A stretch of DNA of 64,000 bases from Verrucomicrobiia bacterium (GCA_036268055.1 DATAUW010000036.1:1-64000), one strand, 5' to 3'; numbered from the stretch's first letter, positions 10,211-20,204 are shown. Made by a program: numbers and translations. The notes: generated by a model not told the origin, from the sequence alone.

Positions 10211-12973
10211 TTACTGCGCGGGCACAGCCCGATAATATCCCGCCGAATTTGTCGCGTTCGAATCATTGAGCGAAAGAATTCCCGTCGTTGCCAGGTTCGT
10301 GCTCAGCGGAAACCAATGGATCAAATCCGGCGACGTTTGGAGCACGTAACTTTTATTTACGGTTCCGATGAGGCGGAGTTGCGCCGTCGCGTTCGTGGGA
10401 TTGAACACAAACGAATCCAATCGCATCGGCGTATTCAGGAAAATGGAGACCGGCGTGGTCACGGCCGCGCCGAGCGCATTGGTAGCGACCATTTGATACG
10501 TGCCGCATTTACCATACTGGAAATTGGTGATGGTGAGCATGACGTTGGTGGCGCCCGACAGCAGGCCGCCGTTGTGCCACCATTGGCAGCCGGGCGTCAA
10601 GTGACCCGCCGCCGCCGCCGCGAGGCTGAGCGTGGCGCCGGGCGAAACCGTCTGGCTGACGGGCTGCGCCGTGATCGTCGGCGGCACAGTCAGGTTCGCA
10701 TTCAACACCACCGTTCCCGCCGTGCCGTTCACACTGTCCACCGCCACGTAATAAACCGTGTTGCTCGTCGCGGCGAAACTCACGCGGCTGTTTGTGCCGC
10801 CCTGGCCGCTACCGATGTCGCAAGCCACCGGCATCAGGCTCGCGAAGTCGTCGCCATTGCCGGTATAGACCGCGAGAATCGTATTGAAACTGCTGCCGTC
10901 GGTATCAATGACCAGCACGCCGTTGTCGGCGGCCTGCACGGAAGCCCAGGACGAATTGCCGCCCGCGTTGCCGCAATGATTGGGTTCGCCGGTCTGGGTC
11001 GCGCCGCCGTAAGTGCTGAAGACCTGCGTGCTCGAATAACCGCGCGATGTGCCGCCGGCATCACTGACAGAACGCGCGCTCGCCGGGCCGAACGAGGAAA
11101 CACCGTAGGAAGCAATCGTGCCGTTTTTGCTGAAGGGCAAACCCTGCGCCTCGTTCTGCACCGCTGTATAAGCTGTCTGAAATTTATCCGCTGCGACCGC
11201 ATTTGTGTTCACCGCGCCATCCAAAACACTGATCTCAAGGCTCGCGGGTTTGGACGTGATGGACTGGTTGGACTTGGTGACTTTCACGGTGTAAATGCCG
11301 ACGCTCGCCACGGAAGCATTTTTCACCAGCAAGTTCGCCGAAGTCGCGCCGGAAATCGCCGCGCCATTTTGATACCACTGATAGGTTGAACCCGAGCCCG
11401 CCGTCACGGCGAACGTCGCGGTTCCGCCGGTGGTGACGATTTGATTCGCGGGCTGCGTGGAGATCTGCGGGATGGCCGCAGCGAGCGGATTGTAACTCGC
11501 CGAAATGACAATTTGTCCCGAAGCGCCATAAGCGCCGTCAATCGCAATGGCGTAAGACGTGCCGGGAGTTACATTGAAAGTCACCGAACTTGTGTAGTAA
11601 CCGCCCGCATCGTCATCACTCACCACCGGGGTAAGGTTACTGAGCGTCGTGCCGGTATAAACGGCGATGACCGTATCAAAGCTGCTGCCCGCCGTGGAAA
11701 TCGTGGCCGTGCCCTTGGTCAACAACAACGAAGGCGTCCACTTGAGCCAAACCGATTTGCCGCCCGGCACACCGGCATGAACCGGTTCGCCCGGCTCGCT
11801 CGTCGCGCTCACGTTGCTGCCCACGCCGCCCAGCAATCCGCCGACGATCGGCAACGCCACCAAACCCATGTCACCGCGCGAAGCAAAACTATCGCTCGCC
11901 GGAAGCGGCAACAACCCGCCGATATTGATGATAGCCCCGTCTGAAGTCAGAGCGCCGGTAAGATCGGACACCACGCAGGTGTAGAGACCGCCGTCGCCCA
12001 GATTCAAAGTCGCTTTGCTGTAGGTGGAATTCGTCGCGCCCGGAATATTTTCGCCGTTAAGCCGCCATTGATAATGCGCATTGGGCGAGCCGAGGATGCC
12101 CGTCACCAGATTCAGCAGGCCGCCGAGATTCAACAACTGCGTGATCGGTTGCAGATTGATCAGAATGGCCGAGGGAGCGGAGACGTTCAGGCTATATTGG
12201 TTAGTGGCCGCGCCGAAATTCAAATTATACTGGTCCTGGATGAAACTCGCCACGTTCGTCGCGCCGCCCACCGCATTTCCCGACGCAAAGACCGTCAACG
12301 TGGCAGATGCGCCCGCGCCCAGTGTGCCGACGTTCCAGGTGATGGTGTTGCCCGTGGGAGCGGGAGGAGTAAATTGCGTGGCCGTCGAGTAAGCATAAAT
12401 GAAGCTCGCCGGAAAAACATCCTTCACCACGATTCCCGTGGCGTCGTTCGCGGACGAGTTCACCAGTTTAACCGTGAAGGCGACTTGATCACCGACCCGC
12501 ACGGTGTTGGACGAAGCGCCCATCGTCAGCGCGAGACTCACGGAATTCGTGGGCGCGAATTGCAGGCTGTTCGAGAAATCGGAGACGTTGTTGCCGGAAT
12601 CGGTCGCGGTGGCGAGCACGTAATCATTCAGCGGAACCGTCGGCGGAAAAGAAACGAAGAAAGTGGCGTTGCCCGATCCATCGGTTTCAACGGAGGAAGA
12701 ACCAATATACGTTTTGTTGTCGGCAGGATTGCCGGTGGGGCTTTCGTAGAAATCCAACTGGAAGGCGGAATTCGCCGCCGCGTTCAAACTGCCGCGCGCC
12801 ACGATGGCATTGCCGTTGGCCGTTACCGAAGTCAGCACCGGGGCGGCGGAGGCTGCCACCGACACCAATATTAATATGGCCAGCGCCATCAGGCCGCGCA
12901 GGGCGCCGGTTACAAACCGCGTGCCGGCCAATCTTTGCGTATTCTGTTCCGTTGATTTCATCCGTAGGTACAT
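10211..12973 (-). CDS. Large secreted Ig-like / DUF11 / PPC-domain protein
   Basis: A 920-residue exported protein with a long N-region and a hydrophobic signal (cleavage near ASA-AP). I use the ATG at 12973, which follows an AAAGGGG 11 nt upstream; ATG 12961 is also possible. Domains in order: an Ig/cadherin-like beta domain, a DUF11-like domain (LTMGASSNTVRVGDQV), Ig-like domain (YQWRLNGENIPGATN), PPC-like domain (W-x-K-W-T-P, SSFDTVIAVYTG), Ig-like (YQWYQNGAAISGA), second PPC-like (SSFNTILAVYTG), Ig-like (CQWWHNG) and a short C-terminal module. It is typical of verrucomicrobial secreted adhesion or polymer-binding proteins. Divergent from the FecR-barrel gene. Confidence 0.8.
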   Translation of the reverse strand: MYLRMKSTEQNTQRLAGTRFVTGALRGLMALAILILVSVAASAAPVLTSVTANGNAIVARGSLNAAANSAFQLDFYESPTGNPADNKTYIGSSSVETDGSGNATFFVSFPPTVPLNDYVLATATDSGNNVSDFSNSLQFAPTNSVSLALTMGASSNTVRVGDQVAFTVKLVNSSANDATGIVVKDVFPASFIYAYSTATQFTPPAPTGNTITWNVGTLGAGASATLTVFASGNAVGGATNVASFIQDQYNLNFGAATNQYSLNVSAPSAILINLQPITQLLNLGGLLNLVTGILGSPNAHYQWRLNGENIPGATNSTYSKATLNLGDGGLYTCVVSDLTGALTSDGAIINIGGLLPLPASDSFASRGDMGLVALPIVGGLLGGVGSNVSATSEPGEPVHAGVPGGKSVWLKWTPSLLLTKGTATISTAGSSFDTVIAVYTGTTLSNLTPVVSDDDAGGYYTSSVTFNVTPGTSYAIAIDGAYGASGQIVISASYNPLAAAIPQISTQPANQIVTTGGTATFAVTAGSGSTYQWYQNGAAISGATSANLLVKNASVASVGIYTVKVTKSNQSITSKPASLEISVLDGAVNTNAVAADKFQTAYTAVQNEAQGLPFSKNGTIASYGVSSFGPASARSVSDAGGTSRGYSSTQVFSTYGGATQTGEPNHCGNAGGNSSWASVQAADNGVLVIDTDGSSFNTILAVYTGNGDDFASLMPVACDIGSGQGGTNSRVSFAATSNTVYYVAVDSVNGTAGTVVLNANLTVPPTITAQPVSQTVSPGATLSLAAAAAGHLTPGCQWWHNGGLLSGATNVMLTITNFQYGKCGTYQMVATNALGAAVTTPVSIFLNTPMRLDSFVFNPTNATAQLRLIGTVNKSYVLQTSPDLIHWFPLSTNLATTGILSLNDSNATNSAGYYRAVPAQ

Positions 12974-13297
12974 TTCTGACACGACCCCTTTCAGCAAAAA
13001 ACAGACCAGCCGCTGGTTTTATCATTTCTTTTAAAAAATACTACGGAACCAACACACGCCGACAGGACACATCCGTACTATTACGAGACAAAAACAAAAG
13101 CCACTGTCTTGAACCAAGACATTTGCAGAAGACACTTGTCACACTTCGGGACACTTCAGGTCAGTTGCTTTGCTGCCGATTGTCCTACAGAGCGCGTTCC
13201 GCGAATTTCCGCAAACCTTATGGCGTGCGGAATATCCGCAATTCACCGGGGCGGCTTTGCTTGGCAGATGTTTTGCTCACGCTTGCTTTGCTTGACT

Positions 13298-16200
13298 ATG
13301 ATACGTGTAACAATTCGCAGTATTGGGAATCGCGCGCGGGCAGCACAGATTTCGCAAGTTTGCGCCGGCGCATTGATCGCCGCCTTCGCCGCTTTTCACC
13401 TGACTGGCGCTTCCGCCGCTCCGAGCGAACCCGCTTTGGCCGGCACGGTTCTCACGGTCGAAGGCACGGTCGAGATCGCCCGCACGGGTGAAACCCAATG
13501 GACCGCAGTCAGCACGAATGTCACGCTCGGCTTCGGCGATAGTCTCCGCACCGCCTCTCAGAGCCGCGCCACCGTCCGCCTTTCCGACCTCAGCGTGATT
13601 CGCGTGAATGAAAAAACCGTGCTCGAAATTCGCCCGCAGGATACCGGCAATGGTTCGCGCCTCGATCTGCAAACCGGCTCCACTTACTTTTTCCATCGCT
13701 CAAAACCCGCGAGCGTGGAATTTCAAACGCCTTTGATCTCCGGCGCGATTCGCGGCACGGAATTCAATCTCTCCGCCGAAACCAATTCCGGCCCGACTAC
13801 CGTTACGCTCATCGAGGGCCAGGTCGCGCTGAACAATTCCCACGGCCAGCTTGTTTTGAATAGCGGCGAGCAGGGCACGGTGGATCCCGGCCAGGCGCCG
13901 CGCAAGACCGCCGTCATCAATGCCATCAATATTATCCAATGGTCGTTGTATTATCCCGCCGTGCTCGACCCGGATGAGATCGGTTTGTCTGATGCCGAAA
14001 AATCCGCGCAGAGTTATTCTCTCGCTGCTTATCGCTCCGGCGATCTGCTGGCCGCATTGAAAGAATATCCCAAGAGTGCGCCGACTTCCGATGCGTTGCG
14101 CGTGCAACACGCGGCGTTGTTATTGTCGGTCGGGCAAGTGGACGAGACGGAAGCGGCGTTGAAAGATGTGCCAGCCTCGGCCTCCAGCCTCGCGTTGCGT
14201 GAAGTCATCGCGGCAGTGAAGCATCAGGAATTTTCCCGCAGCAGCGCACCTCAAACGGCCAGCGAATGGCTCGCGGAATCGTATTATCAACAGTCGCGTT
14301 CGCAGTTGAAACCGGCGCTTGCCGCCGCGCGTTCCGCTGTCGCGAAATCGCCGAAGTTCGGTTTTGCGTGGGTGCGCGTCGCGGAATTGGAATTCAGCCT
14401 TGGCCACGCGGACGCCGCAAAAACCGCGCTTGATCGCGGCCTCGAACTTTCCCCGCGCAATGCCCAGGCGCTCACGCTCAAGGGTTTTATTCTCGCCTCG
14501 CAAAATCGCACGCGCGAAGCCGCCGCGAGTTTTGACGATGCCATTTCCACCGATGGCGCGCTCGCCAATGCGTGGCTCGGCCGCGGCTTGTGCCGGATTC
14601 ACGAAGGTCACGTCGAAGCCGGACGCAATGACATTCAGGTCGCCGCGACGCTTGAGCCAAACCGCGCGGAACTGCGCAATTATCTCGGCAAAGCGTGGAT
14701 TGAAACTCACGACCCCAAACACGCCGAAAAAGAATTGGCGCTCGCAAAACAATTTGATCCCGCCGACCCGACACCGTGGTTGTATTCAGCCTTGCTGAAT
14801 TTCGATTACAACCAGGACAATCAGGCGATTCACGATTTGGAAAAATCCAAGGAGTTGAACAATAACCGCAGCGTGTTCCGCTCGAAGCTGCTGCTCGACC
14901 AGGACCAGGCGGTGCGCGGCGCGAACCTTGCGAAGATTTATCAGGACGACGGCATGTTCGACGTGAGCGTGCGCGAATCCGCGCAGGCCGTGGACAACGA
15001 CTACGCGAATTATTCCGCGCATCTTTTTCTCGCGAACAGTTACGACGCCCTCCGCGATCCCAAGCGCATCAATCTCCGTTACGAAACGCCGTGGTTCAGC
15101 CAGTTACTCGTCGCGGATTTGCTCGCGCCGGTCGGCGGCGTGTCGCTCTCGCAAAATGTTTCGCAACAGGAATACTCACGCCTCTTTGATGGCGACCACG
15201 TCGGCGTCTATAACGACACGCAATACACCAGCCGCGGTGACTGGCTGGAGACAGCGTCGGTTTATGGCAACGTGGACAACACCGGTTTCTCGCTCGATGT
15301 TTTTCACCAAACCGAAAACGGTTTTCGCGCAAACAATGATCTTCAGGACAATGAATTCACCGCGAAATTCAAACAACAGATCACGCCGCAGGATTCAGTG
15401 TTCCTCGAAGTCTCCACACAGAACACGCACTCGGGTGATTTGAACCAGTATTATTCGCAATCCCAGGCGATCTCGAACTTGCGGGTGTCCGAGGAGCAGG
15501 AACCGAATTTGTTCATCGGTTATCATCGCGAGTGGGCGCCGGGCGTTCACACGCTGATACTCGCCGGACGTTTGCAGGATGATTTTTCGTTGAACAGCCC
15601 GACGAATAACACGCCTTTCATCAGCACCGGCGCGGTGCCGATCCCCGGTTTCTCGCTGCAACCTTTTCCGTTCACTTTCCAAAGCGAACTCGTCGCCTAC
15701 ACCGCGGAGCTTCAACAAATATTCCAGACCGATTCGCAAACGCTCGTGCTCGGCGCGCGCTATCAGACCGGTGATTTGCAAAACATGTCCGCGCTCACGA
15801 ACACGCTGCAAATTCCCGCAATGTCCATCAACCAATCGCTGGACGCGCAACTCAAACGTGTGACGGGTTACGGGTATTATTCGTATCGCGTTGTGGACCC
15901 GCTGCTGCTCACCGCCGCGTTGAATTATGATCATCTTGAGTATCCTGATAATGACGAACGTCCCCCCATCGCGGGCACGGAGACGAGCAAAGACCAAGTC
16001 TCGCCCAAGCTCGGATTCCGCTGGACGCCGCTCGAACACTCCACTTTCCGTGGCGCATGGACGCGTTCGCTCGGCGGCGTGTTTTACGATACCAGCGTGC
16101 GCCTGGAGCCGACGGAAATCGCCGGATTCAACGACGCCTTCCGCAGCATTCTCCCCGAATCCATCGCGGGGCTCGTGCCCGGTTCGCGCTTTGAAACTTA

Positions 16201-16789
16201 TGACTTGGCCTTCGACCAGGAATTACCGGCCACGCGCACTTACTTCAGCGTCGTCGCGGAGTTGCTGAAATCCACCGGTGAAACCGGCGACGGCGCCATT
16301 CGCCGCACCGGGCCGATCAATCCGATGCCATTTGAATTGAACGAGCGCCTTGATTATGCCGACCGTTCACTTTCAGTGATCGTGAATCAGTTGCTTGGCG
16401 ATGAATTTGCCGTGGGCGCGAGTTATCGCATTGATCTGGCGAAACTCGACAACCAATTCCTGGGAACCGCCATCGCGAATCCGCAAACCAAAGCGACTTT
16501 GCAGCAAGTCAATCTCTACGCGCTCTTCAATCATCGCTGTGGATTTTTCAGCAAGGTCGAAGCCGTCTGGTCCGCGCAATCGAACTCGGGATACACGCCG
16601 GACATTCCGGGCGACGACTTCGTGCAGGTCAATGCCTTCGCTGGATACCGCCTCCCGCGCCGCCTTGCCGAGATGCAAGTGGGCGTGCTGAATATCGGCA
16701 ATCGCGATTACAACCTCAACCCGCTCACCCTCTACACCGAACTGCCGCGGGAGCGCACGTTCGTGGCGGAATTCAAATTCAATTTCTAA
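13298..16789 (+). CDS. FecR-TPR-outer-membrane beta-barrel fusion protein
   Basis: A 1163-residue protein starting at the ATG at 13298, the start that puts the signal peptide (cleavage near ASA-AP) at the N-terminus; the frame is open upstream to 13109. Residues about 50-190 form a FecR domain (GTVEIARTGE, ATVRLSDLSVIRVNEKT, a GAIRGTEFNL block). Residues about 220-540 are TPR helices. From about 590 to the end is a beta-barrel with alternating aromatic strands, resembling TonB-dependent receptors, ending in Phe (KFNF). There is no visible TonB box or plug. It is followed by a CHASE2 kinase gene about 200 nt later, an association seen elsewhere for FecR proteins. Probable role: an outer-membrane port combined with a periplasmic sensor. 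Confidence 0.75.
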   Translation: MIRVTIRSIGNRARAAQISQVCAGALIAAFAAFHLTGASAAPSEPALAGTVLTVEGTVEIARTGETQWTAVSTNVTLGFGDSLRTASQSRATVRLSDLSVIRVNEKTVLEIRPQDTGNGSRLDLQTGSTYFFHRSKPASVEFQTPLISGAIRGTEFNLSAETNSGPTTVTLIEGQVALNNSHGQLVLNSGEQGTVDPGQAPRKTAVINAINIIQWSLYYPAVLDPDEIGLSDAEKSAQSYSLAAYRSGDLLAALKEYPKSAPTSDALRVQHAALLLSVGQVDETEAALKDVPASASSLALREVIAAVKHQEFSRSSAPQTASEWLAESYYQQSRSQLKPALAAARSAVAKSPKFGFAWVRVAELEFSLGHADAAKTALDRGLELSPRNAQALTLKGFILASQNRTREAAASFDDAISTDGALANAWLGRGLCRIHEGHVEAGRNDIQVAATLEPNRAELRNYLGKAWIETHDPKHAEKELALAKQFDPADPTPWLYSALLNFDYNQDNQAIHDLEKSKELNNNRSVFRSKLLLDQDQAVRGANLAKIYQDDGMFDVSVRESAQAVDNDYANYSAHLFLANSYDALRDPKRINLRYETPWFSQLLVADLLAPVGGVSLSQNVSQQEYSRLFDGDHVGVYNDTQYTSRGDWLETASVYGNVDNTGFSLDVFHQTENGFRANNDLQDNEFTAKFKQQITPQDSVFLEVSTQNTHSGDLNQYYSQSQAISNLRVSEEQEPNLFIGYHREWAPGVHTLILAGRLQDDFSLNSPTNNTPFISTGAVPIPGFSLQPFPFTFQSELVAYTAELQQIFQTDSQTLVLGARYQTGDLQNMSALTNTLQIPAMSINQSLDAQLKRVTGYGYYSYRVVDPLLLTAALNYDHLEYPDNDERPPIAGTETSKDQVSPKLGFRWTPLEHSTFRGAWTRSLGGVFYDTSVRLEPTEIAGFNDAFRSILPESIAGLVPGSRFETYDLAFDQELPATRTYFSVVAELLKSTGETGDGAIRRTGPINPMPFELNERLDYADRSLSVIVNQLLGDEFAVGASYRIDLAKLDNQFLGTAIANPQTKATLQQVNLYALFNHRCGFFSKVEAVWSAQSNSGYTPDIPGDDFVQVNAFAGYRLPRRLAEMQVGVLNIGNRDYNLNPLTLYTELPRERTFVAEFKFNF

Positions 16790-16995
16790 ACCCGAGCGGA
16801 TGAAGCGGGATTTTTCATGGTGGTTTAAATTTTGCGTGAACGCCGCGCCGAAAGAGGTTGGCCATTTCATGCACTCCGCCGCCGTCCCCGCGTCGCTGTT
16901 GCGCAGTTGGAGCCGCTCAGCGTTCAAATCCACTTTATTCAAGCCCCTTGCAAATCCCTTCGCGGAGAATATCCTTGCCGACGCGCGGCCGCTCG

Positions 16996-19830
16996 ATGCC
17001 ACCGCTCATCTGGATGAATCTGAAAAATAAATCCTGGGGCTATTGGCTCGGCGGCGGATTAAGCGCAATGCTGGTTTTTGCGCTCGGCCTGCATTTGCTC
17101 GTTTCGACAGGACCCTTCGCCCATTCCCTCGAATGGATGAGTTACAATTATTCCTTCGATCTCGGTTTGTTCGCGAGTCCTGACGTCAAATCTTCCGGCG
17201 TCGTCATTGTTTTTATTGACGAAAAATCGTTCAAGGATTTGGACCAGCCGCAGAATCAATCGCTGGACCGCAAGTTCCAGGCGGACCTGTTGAATCGCAT
17301 GAAACAGGACCAGGCTAAAGCCGTGGTCATGGACATCATTTTCAGCGATCCGGGCCCGCAGGATCGGCTGGCTTCCGACGCAAAATTTACCGAAGCACTT
17401 CGCGCCAACGGCCATGTGGTGCTCGGCGTGGACTACAATCGTTCGGACGAAGACAACGTGCGGCCTTTTATGAACACCGCGTCCACCCTGCTCACCACCC
17501 GCGCGATGGACAAGATTTTGACGTTCCCGTACGAGCCGTTCCGCAAGGCCGCCGCCGGATTGGGATTGGTGCAGTTGACGCCCGACCAGGATTTCGTCAT
17601 CCGCAAACATTTCAAAGAACTTTCATCGGACGATCTCGCCCGCATCGTCAAGGAAGAACGCGGCAATGTTCCCGAAAGCCTCAGCATGGTCACGGCACAA
17701 ATGCTCGGCCTGCCGGTCGCCAAGGCCGCGTCGCGTTATAGCGGCGACCGTTGGATTTATTATTATGGCCGCCCGGGCGAAGCCATTCCCGGAGTAAGTT
17801 TTTCCGAGGCGTTCACCATGCCGCCGGGCTTCTTCAAGGATAAGATCGTTTTCGTCGGCGCGCGGCCAAAGACGGGCGAATGGTCGGAAGTTCGCGATGA
17901 GATGCGCAGCCCGTTCTCAACCTTCGGCTGGCATTTCACCAAAATGCCGATGGTGGAAATCCATGCGACGGAATTTTTGAATCTTCTGCGGCGGGATTGG
18001 CTGACCCGGCCTTCGCTGACCGTAGAGGCGGGAATTTTATTGATCGTCGGAATCGTTTTTGGCTTTGGCTTGCTGAGCTTTCGCCCGGTCGTCGCCACCG
18101 GCGCGGCAGCCATCGGGACGCTGGTTGTCCTGCTGGCCGCACAAACATTATTTGCCGTCCAGCACATTTGGTTCGCGTGGATGATCATCGTTGGCGCGCA
18201 GATTCCGTGTGCATTGCTTTACGCGATCATTTTCCGTTCGCTCGAATGGTATGCCCAGCGCCGCAAGCTCGAAGAGGAACGTGCGAAGGCCGACGCGCGG
18301 ATTCGCGAACAGGCCGCGTTGCTGGATAAAGCCGGTGACGCGATCATCGTGCATGACCTCGACTGGCGCGCGCAATATTGGAACAAAAGCGCCGAGGCGC
18401 TCTACGGCTGGAATTTCGCGGAGGTGCAAGCGCTGAGTTTGAAGACGGATGTTTTCAAGACGGACGAGGCGAAGTTGCTCGAAGCCTTGCAAACCGCGCT
18501 GGCGAAGGGCGAGTGGTCGGGCGAATTAAAACAATCGTCGAAGACGGGCCGCGCGTTGCTGGTGCAAAGCCGCTGGACGCTCGTGCGCGACGACGCGGGC
18601 AAACCCAAGAGCGTGCTGGTCATCAATACAGATGTCACCGAGCAGAAGAAATTGGAACTGCAATTTTTGCGCACGCAGCGGATGGAAAGCATCGGCACGC
18701 TCGCCGGCGGCATTGCGCATGATCTCAACAACGTGCTCGCGCCAATCCTCATGGGCGTGGAGATGATGAAGATGAAAAGCACGGATGAATTCACGACCAA
18801 GATGCTCACCACCATGTCTTCCAGCGCGAAACGCGGTTCGGACATGGTGAAGCAAGTGCTGACATTCGCGCGCGGCCACGAGGGCGAGCGCAGCGTTTTG
18901 CAGATCAGCCATCTGGTGCGCGAGATGCAGAAAATCGTGAAAGAGACATTTCCCAAGTCCATTGATTTTTCGACCGAGTTGGGCGACAACCTCTGGCCCA
19001 TCATGGGCGACGCCACGCAGATTCATCAGATCATTTTGAACCTGTGCGTCAACGCGCGCGACGCCATGCCGGACGGCGGCAAACTTGCCCTCGGCGCGAA
19101 GAACGTGGCACTGACCGAAGAACAGGCGGCGAAATTCGCGGGCGCAAAAGCGATCCAATATGTATTGCTCTCGTCGTCCGACAGCGGCACGGGCATCCCG
19201 CCGGAAATCATCGAGAAAATTTTTGAGCCGTTTTTCACGACCAAGGAAATCGGCAAGGGCACGGGACTGGGTTTGTCCACCGTCATCAGCATCATCAAGA
19301 GCCACGGCGGATTTTTGGATTTGCAAACGCAGGTTGGCAAAGGCACTACGTTCAATGTTTATTTGCCCGCGGCGGAATCCGCTTTGCAGGCCGCGCCCGC
19401 GCCGATTTCGCCGGACGCTTTGCGCGGCAAGGGCGAGACGGTGATGCTCGTGGACGATGAGCCCGGCGTGCTGGAAGTCACCAAGCACATGCTCACGCAT
19501 TATGGTTACAACGTCATCACCGCGATCCACGGCGCGGACGCGCTCGCGCTCTATCCGCAGTGCAAGGCGCGCCTCGGCGTGGTCATCATGGACATGATGA
19601 TGCCCGTGATGGACGGCCCCAACGCGATCCGCGAATTGCGCAAGCAGGACCCTAAATTGAAATTCATCGCGATCAGCGGTTTGCTGGCGGGCGATAAAAT
19701 CCAGGAACGCATCGGCGGCGAGGAAGTCGCTTTTATTTCCAAGCCCTTTGCATCGGAAAAATTGCTGGTGTCGTTGCGCGAAGTCTTGAACGAAGCGCCC
19801 AAGCCGGAAGCCGTGGCTGCTGGTGTGTAA
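16996..19830 (+). CDS. CHASE2-PAS hybrid histidine kinase with C-terminal receiver
   Basis: The ATG at 16996 gives a 944-residue protein; ATG 17014 is an alternative and upstream codons are not gene-like. Order: N-terminal membrane segment (about 17-37), periplasmic CHASE2 domain (to about 335) with [10 protein letters not shown], three membrane segments (about 340-412), a PAS domain (about 430-545), HisKA with the phosphoacceptor His575 in GGIAHDLNN, HATPase with FEPFFTTK and GTGLGLST, and a receiver with [10 protein letters not shown] and a late KPF. All catalytic motifs are intact. It senses a periplasmic signal; the FecR-barrel protein just upstream is the obvious partner. Confidence 0.92.
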
Positions 19831-19841
19831 GCCGAGTTACT

Positions 19842-20204
19842 CTAACCGCAAAACTCGCGCGCCGTGGCGAGGAGCTTTTCCAGCGAGCCATCCTTGAGCA
19901 AGTATCGTTGCGCGCCGCGCGCGAGCATTTCAGTGACCAATTCATCGTCCGGCTGTCGCCCGGTGTAGAGAATGATCGGGGCCTTTGGATGGTTCTGTTT
20001 CAGATAATCCAACAGCACGCCGCTGCCTTTGCCGGGAAGATTCACGTCGAGGATGATGGCGCACAGGGAAACGCCGCTGGCCACGCGCATGGCCTCATCG
20101 GCATCGCCCGCCGCGAGGATATTCATGCCGAAACATTCAAAATAACTGGCGACCATGAAGCGCAAATCGGATTCGTCGTCCACGAATAAAATCGTGCCAG
20201 CCAT
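19842..20204 (-). CDS. Stand-alone response-regulator receiver protein
   Basis: A 120-residue single receiver domain: acidic pair in FVDDES, phosphoacceptor Asp in IILDVNLPGKG, Thr in LYTGR, and Lys in LLKDG. No output domain. It is convergent with the hybrid kinase (ends 11 nt apart), so it may act in the same phosphorelay as a CheY-like carrier, though the opposite strand leaves regulation separate. The ATG at 20204 is the natural start (MAGTILFVDDE). Confidence 0.9.
   Translation of the reverse strand: MAGTILFVDDESDLRFMVASYFECFGMNILAAGDADEAMRVASGVSLCAIILDVNLPGKGSGVLLDYLKQNHPKAPIILYTGRQPDDELVTEMLARGAQRYLLKDGSLEKLLATAREFCG

Follow-up and report, generated by a model that had tools for sequence, protein, structure and literature searches.

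The locus at 13298-19830 raises the question of why a single polypeptide with FecR, TPR and outer-membrane barrel parts is encoded just before a CHASE2 hybrid histidine kinase, and whether a signal passes from the one protein to the other. The locus lies in a window of 64,000 nucleotides (C36:1-64000), which is the whole stretch of DNA that was analysed, from a Verrucomicrobiia genome of 5.1 Mb in 41 contigs. The first gene of the pair, encoding an NsrA-like outer-membrane receptor on the plus strand, is a single open frame from the ATG at 13298 to the stop at 16789, and its product of 1163 amino acids begins with a signal helix. The FecR domain (PF04773, residues 81-176, 13538-13825) was matched with an E-value of 1.8e-13, several TPR families of Pfam were matched at about residues 300-530, and the TonB_dep_Rec barrel family PF00593 was matched at residues 714-928 with an E-value of 3e-10; LysM gave no Pfam match. 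An AlphaFold2 model built from 70 sequences (mean pLDDT 88.5, pTM 0.83) has placed a FecR beta domain at residues 47-205, a TPR superhelix at 232-609 (13991-15124) and a TonB-receptor-type barrel at 634-1162 (15197-16783), the number of barrel strands being about 22 by our own count from the strands listed for the model. On structure comparison by Foldseek and VIA-align 2, the barrel was found to match FhuA, FecA and Cir with Z of about 17-19 (FecA, 1kmp: Z 17.5, rmsd 3.8, 482 residues) and the helices matched TPR proteins, while the sequence search against solved structures returned TPR-type proteins only, among the matches listed. TPR helices, and not a plug, precede the barrel in the model, and the plug domain PF07715 was not found among the Pfam matches up to an E-value of 1. 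Frame, Pfam and model thus agree with the sequence-only reading, which had assigned all three parts to one polypeptide.

That reading had carried the doubt that a frameshift or an assembly joint might lie between the FecR-TPR part and the barrel. This is excluded by the relatives of the protein. A search of 58 genomes from the same taxonomic order has given 61 fusion matches, mostly full length and 38-67% identical, in which the domain order is collinear. In a further search of genome contigs, at least one relative was encoded on each of 421 contig stretches, and the fusion was in one frame at all of the best 80 loci from these stretches (79 of them inside the length band used); the fusion is not an assembly joint, because the domain order is kept in all 80 of these best relatives. 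The relatives bear Verrucomicrobiota names such as Pedosphaera and Limisphaerales. An even survey of the phylum has detected the family in at least 9 of 387 genomes at an E-value of 1e-30, which is a lower bound as few candidates were scored per genome.

The second gene (16996-19830, plus strand, starting at the ATG at 16996 or 17014) encodes the kinase. Its periplasmic CHASE2 sensor domain (PF05226, E-value 3.6e-36) is at 17092-18060 and is followed at 18316-19773 by PAS, HisKA, HATPase_c and receiver domains; the translation contains both the AHDLNN H-box and the IMDMMMP motif with the receiver aspartate. The domain order and the distance of about 200 nt given earlier from sequence were confirmed, the gap from stop to start at 16790-16995 being 206 nt, or up to 224 nt if the second ATG is used. 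Scanning of this gap for sigma-70-type promoters and terminator-like sites has given none, with counts equal to those of shuffled sequences, and folding at the start of the gap was no better than in shuffles. The kinase stop is 12 bp away from the end of a gene on the minus strand (19842-20204) for a single-domain receiver of 120 amino acids, which could be a phosphorelay partner of the kinase; in the closest relative (L049), no obvious receiver was seen 3' of the kinase.

The adjacency of the two genes is well above chance. CHASE2 was found in 26 of 41 stretches around a fusion, whereas 40 control stretches of 20 kb had none. Among the 61 fusions of this taxonomic order, 24 are followed on the same strand by a CHASE2 match within 600 bp, and 37 have such a match within 10 kb. 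In a named set, 65 fusions were followed by 1.5 kb or more of sequence, and for 40 of these a same-strand CHASE2 gene lay within 1 kb, in many cases within 50 bp; most relatives have the two genes nearly contiguous, in comparison to about 206 nt here. Where 5 kb or more of sequence flanked the fusion on each side, CHASE2 was missing within 5 kb at 11 of 26 loci in the relatives set and at 6 of 25 in the named set. Viewed from the other gene, of 126 CHASE2 matches 35 have a fusion nearby, 37 have a separate FecR gene and no match has both; for the remaining 54, neither partner lies within the limits, in some cases owing to contig ends or an incomplete record of FecR genes. Since CHASE2 pairs with the fusion or with a separate FecR gene and never with both, FecR is the shared partner and the element common to CHASE2 neighbours. 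The fusion and CHASE2 pair is therefore a real, conserved system.

Unpaired genes are also present in the source genome, where CHASE2 genes at C13:288751-289653 and C17:410738-411628 have no FecR gene nearby and a fusion at C11:216654 has no CHASE2 gene nearby; these solitary members may pair in trans. The same genome encodes a FecR protein of 1048 amino acids (L048:6415-9561) that gave neither a TPR nor a barrel match; a histidine kinase and an NtrC-type regulator are encoded close to it, and CHASE2 is absent there.

The output end of the CHASE2 partner was found to vary. The 59 classified linked loci end in a cyclase in 32 cases, a Ser/Thr kinase in 17 and a hybrid histidine kinase in 10, Pfam-based output counts having been made on 25 CHASE2 partners. 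At least six output changes are needed on the receptor tree, and by single-domain trees the number of changes is 4 for FecR, 4 for TPR and 9 for the barrel. The histidine-kinase loci occupy two places on the receptor tree and one supported clade on the CHASE2 tree; in the second clade, several of these loci also have an NtrC-type response regulator, and none was seen in the clade of the present pair. This distribution suggests one receptor design wired to different internal responses. At three fusion loci without CHASE2 (L072:5570-8179, L076:3800-6772 and L078:5535-8039), a related upstream gene overlaps the fusion start; the one scanned, at L076, encodes a Ser/Thr kinase with a WD40 propeller, and is possibly another type of output.

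A precedent for such an arrangement is available in rhizobia. NsrA is a rhizobial outer-membrane receptor for host plant signals which acts upstream of CHASE2 adenylate cyclases (PMC7529298, PMC13001267), and these cyclases respond through NsrA (PMC13001267). Its barrel occupies amino acids 600-1200, it is needed together with CyaK for the response to ribosomal protein uL2, and this stimulus is thought to bind its charged outer loops (PMC7529298). CyaK is SMb20776, the CHASE2 cyclase of pSymB (PMC5498481). In our tblastn searches, matches to the FecR region were found on Sinorhizobium plasmids; the full-length relative in S. fredii has 1211 amino acids, and 84 plasmid records carry a relative that covers 80% or more of that protein. 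In the S. meliloti 1021 protein of pSymB, FecR (69-163) and TPR repeats are accompanied by a long C-terminal region. The stop codon of its gene, presumably SMb20775, overlaps the ATG of the next gene, which encodes a CHASE2 cyclase and is the only CHASE2 match on pSymB. From the published barrel position, the adjacency to cyaK and the locus tag, we infer that this gene is nsrA. Pairwise BLASTP alone recovered mainly FecR and TPR between the fusion and the S. meliloti protein, and hhalign of the fusion family with the alphaproteobacterial FecR-TPR-barrel proteins has given a probability of 100 and an E-value of 6.5e-46 over 1013 aligned columns (49-1181 against 31-1212), i.e., homology from end to end. 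The same pair of a FecR-TPR-barrel gene and an overlapping CHASE2 cyclase gene is present in Methylocystis and Rhizobium. Hence, the first supposition that the barrel fusion is unusual does not hold, as the same architecture stands beside a CHASE2 cyclase in S. meliloti, Methylocystis and Rhizobium.

The closest known kind is accordingly NsrA with CyaK (and also CyaD1/CyaD2), and judged by sequence the present pair is best described as a representative of the NsrA/CHASE2 kind from Verrucomicrobiota that has another output. The two share the order FecR-TPR-barrel, a length of about 1200 amino acids and the placement of the receptor gene directly upstream of the CHASE2 enzyme gene on the same strand. 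They differ in phylum, in the spacing of the genes (overlapping in S. meliloti, about 206 nt apart here), in the divergent Ig-like secreted protein upstream of the Verrucomicrobiota pair, and in the output, which is a cyclase in NsrA/CyaK and a CHASE2-PAS hybrid histidine kinase (HisKA-HATPase-REC) here. As the enzyme output is not an adenylate cyclase, the pair is filed as a variant of this kind.

Two side observations were made in the rhizobial loci. A Pycsar-effector gene (PycTM, DUF5706) lies divergently upstream of the fusion in S. meliloti ml45 (L224:4256-4801) and in Rhizobium BG4 (L225:4253-4792), where a CHASE2-type cyclase gene then follows the fusion; a link to cyclic-nucleotide signalling or defence is possible. 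In S. meliloti B399 (L218:7899-10184) the fusion frame ends at 761 amino acids, before the barrel, in comparison to about 1200 in other strains, which is due to a sequencing error or else to a true difference between strains.

Comparison of protein distances has pointed to the part of the receptor that may face the enzyme. Over 65 pairs, the correlation with CHASE2 distance was 0.78 for FecR, 0.60 for the barrel and 0.48 for TPR, and the partial correlations were 0.62, 0.29 and about 0, respectively. None of 2000 permutations in a Mantel test came near the FecR value, and FecR was the strongest in every subset tried, with a small lead in the largest CHASE2 cluster (0.68 versus 0.64-0.66). At most loci the barrel end of the fusion gene is the one nearest to the CHASE2 gene, so proximity on the DNA alone would favour the barrel and not FecR. 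The co-variation supports, rather than proves, signalling or contact from FecR to CHASE2, with the barrel probably being the more freely exchanged sensor part, and it can also stem from co-inheritance of the cassette. These data bear on the view that the two genes are neighbours by history only and signal independently, the kinase sensing through CHASE2 alone. The gap of about 206 nt at 16790-16995 and the fusion and CHASE2 genes that stand alone in some places would be expected under this view. However, it is made very improbable by the pairing, which is kept over the 59 classified loci with three output types, is absent from the 40 control stretches and recurs in Alphaproteobacteria with overlapping genes, and by the domain-specific nature of the co-variation.

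The association of FecR with CHASE2 is not confined to these systems. As had been stated in the sequence-only reading, FecR genes beside CHASE2 genes are known from other phyla (PMC5192318, PMC9239204). In the BiofilmReg operon of Burkholderia, a FecR protein gene adjoins a CHASE2-PAS histidine kinase gene as it does here, whereas its FecR protein has LysM, no TPR or barrel is described for it, and the operon includes a CreB-type response regulator (PMC5192318). In the CHASE2 adenylate cyclase cluster of Campylobacterota, which also includes a phosphodiesterase, TPR is encoded by a separate gene, unlike in the fusion, and the output is an adenylate cyclase (PMC9239204). Ferric citrate signalling by FecA-FecR-FecI also couples a 22-stranded outer-membrane barrel to FecR. 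However, in that system FecR is a protein of its own, a sigma regulator in the inner membrane, whereas here it forms the N-terminus of the barrel protein; no sigma factor gene was present among the scanned neighbours of the fusion, and the fusion has no plug by Pfam. TonB-dependent transporters likewise share the 22-stranded barrel and differ by their N-terminal plug PF07715.

The earlier proposal held that occupancy of a pore is the signal, i.e., a solute in the barrel lumen would be sensed and relayed by FecR to the kinase. The TonB-dependent transporter fold of the barrel is in its favour, and in FecA-FecR signalling transport is coupled to FecR. On the other hand, Pfam matched no plug domain, so transporter-style gating is not indicated, and genes for transport partners do not recur at the fusion loci. 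The published stimulus of NsrA is a protein (PMC7529298). A path from barrel through FecR to the kinase is thus supported by the conserved pairing, the precedent in S. meliloti and the co-variation of FecR with CHASE2; pore occupancy is not supported as the signal, and it is the least probable of the explanations considered.

The neighbourhood of the fusion was considered with respect to export. A secreted protein with Ig, DUF11 and PPC domains is encoded divergently upstream of the receptor (10211-12997, minus strand), and Ig-like secreted proteins were found in 21 of 41 fusion stretches versus 4 of 40 controls, mostly just upstream of the fusion and often divergent. Such proteins may serve as ligands or substrates, or may be surface proteins under shared regulation, and the one at 10211-12997 is a possible partner or substrate of the fusion. 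This recurrence would fit a barrel protein whose main work is to transport or export a surface protein or a polymer, with the CHASE2 enzyme monitoring assembly or load, and a TPR-plus-barrel layout is known from the exporters BcsC, PgaA, PelB and Slam. But exporter barrels have 14 or 16 strands whereas this one is 22-stranded and TonB-receptor-like, about half of the loci have no Ig-like neighbour, and the best studied relative works in signal perception, which make a mainly exporting role unlikely. An exopolysaccharide exporter in particular is improbable on the strand count, and no polysaccharide synthase cluster was seen to recur among the selected neighbours that were scanned against Pfam at 39 fusion loci.

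The pair is therefore most probably an NsrA-type sensor acting across the envelope from barrel to FecR to CHASE2 enzyme, to which we give a probability of about three in four. The outer-membrane barrel would meet an external ligand, probably a protein or a cell-surface molecule, and the TPR arm would span the periplasm and present the N-terminal FecR domain to CHASE2. CHASE2 would be the periplasmic domain of the neighbouring inner-membrane enzyme, whose activity would be altered by contact with FecR. The hybrid histidine kinase would then start a phosphorelay, in place of the adenylate cyclase or Ser/Thr kinase that most relatives have. Of this scheme, we infer the direct contact between FecR and CHASE2, the ligand class, the direction of signalling and the phosphorelay target.

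The kinase outputs, the multi-copy Verrucomicrobiota family, the FecR-specific co-variation and the Ig-like neighbours are new in this study. More speculatively, FecR-TPR-barrel with CHASE2 might be a general plug-in module in which fast-changing barrels for protein or surface ligands are joined to cyclic-nucleotide, Ser/Thr-kinase or two-component outputs, and which in Verrucomicrobiota keeps watch over the linked giant Ig-like surface proteins, either over their display or over contact made through them; this is a tentative and rather doubtful extension. The stimulus of CHASE2 has been described as unknown (PMC5192318), and the present family of loci yields the testable proposal that CHASE2 reads a FecR domain, which may ride on an outer-membrane barrel. 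Our study ties a little-known rhizobial receptor of plant signals to a large multi-copy Verrucomicrobiota family with three kinds of output, and it offers a route by which a signal may pass the outer and the inner membrane with neither a TonB plug nor a sigma factor.
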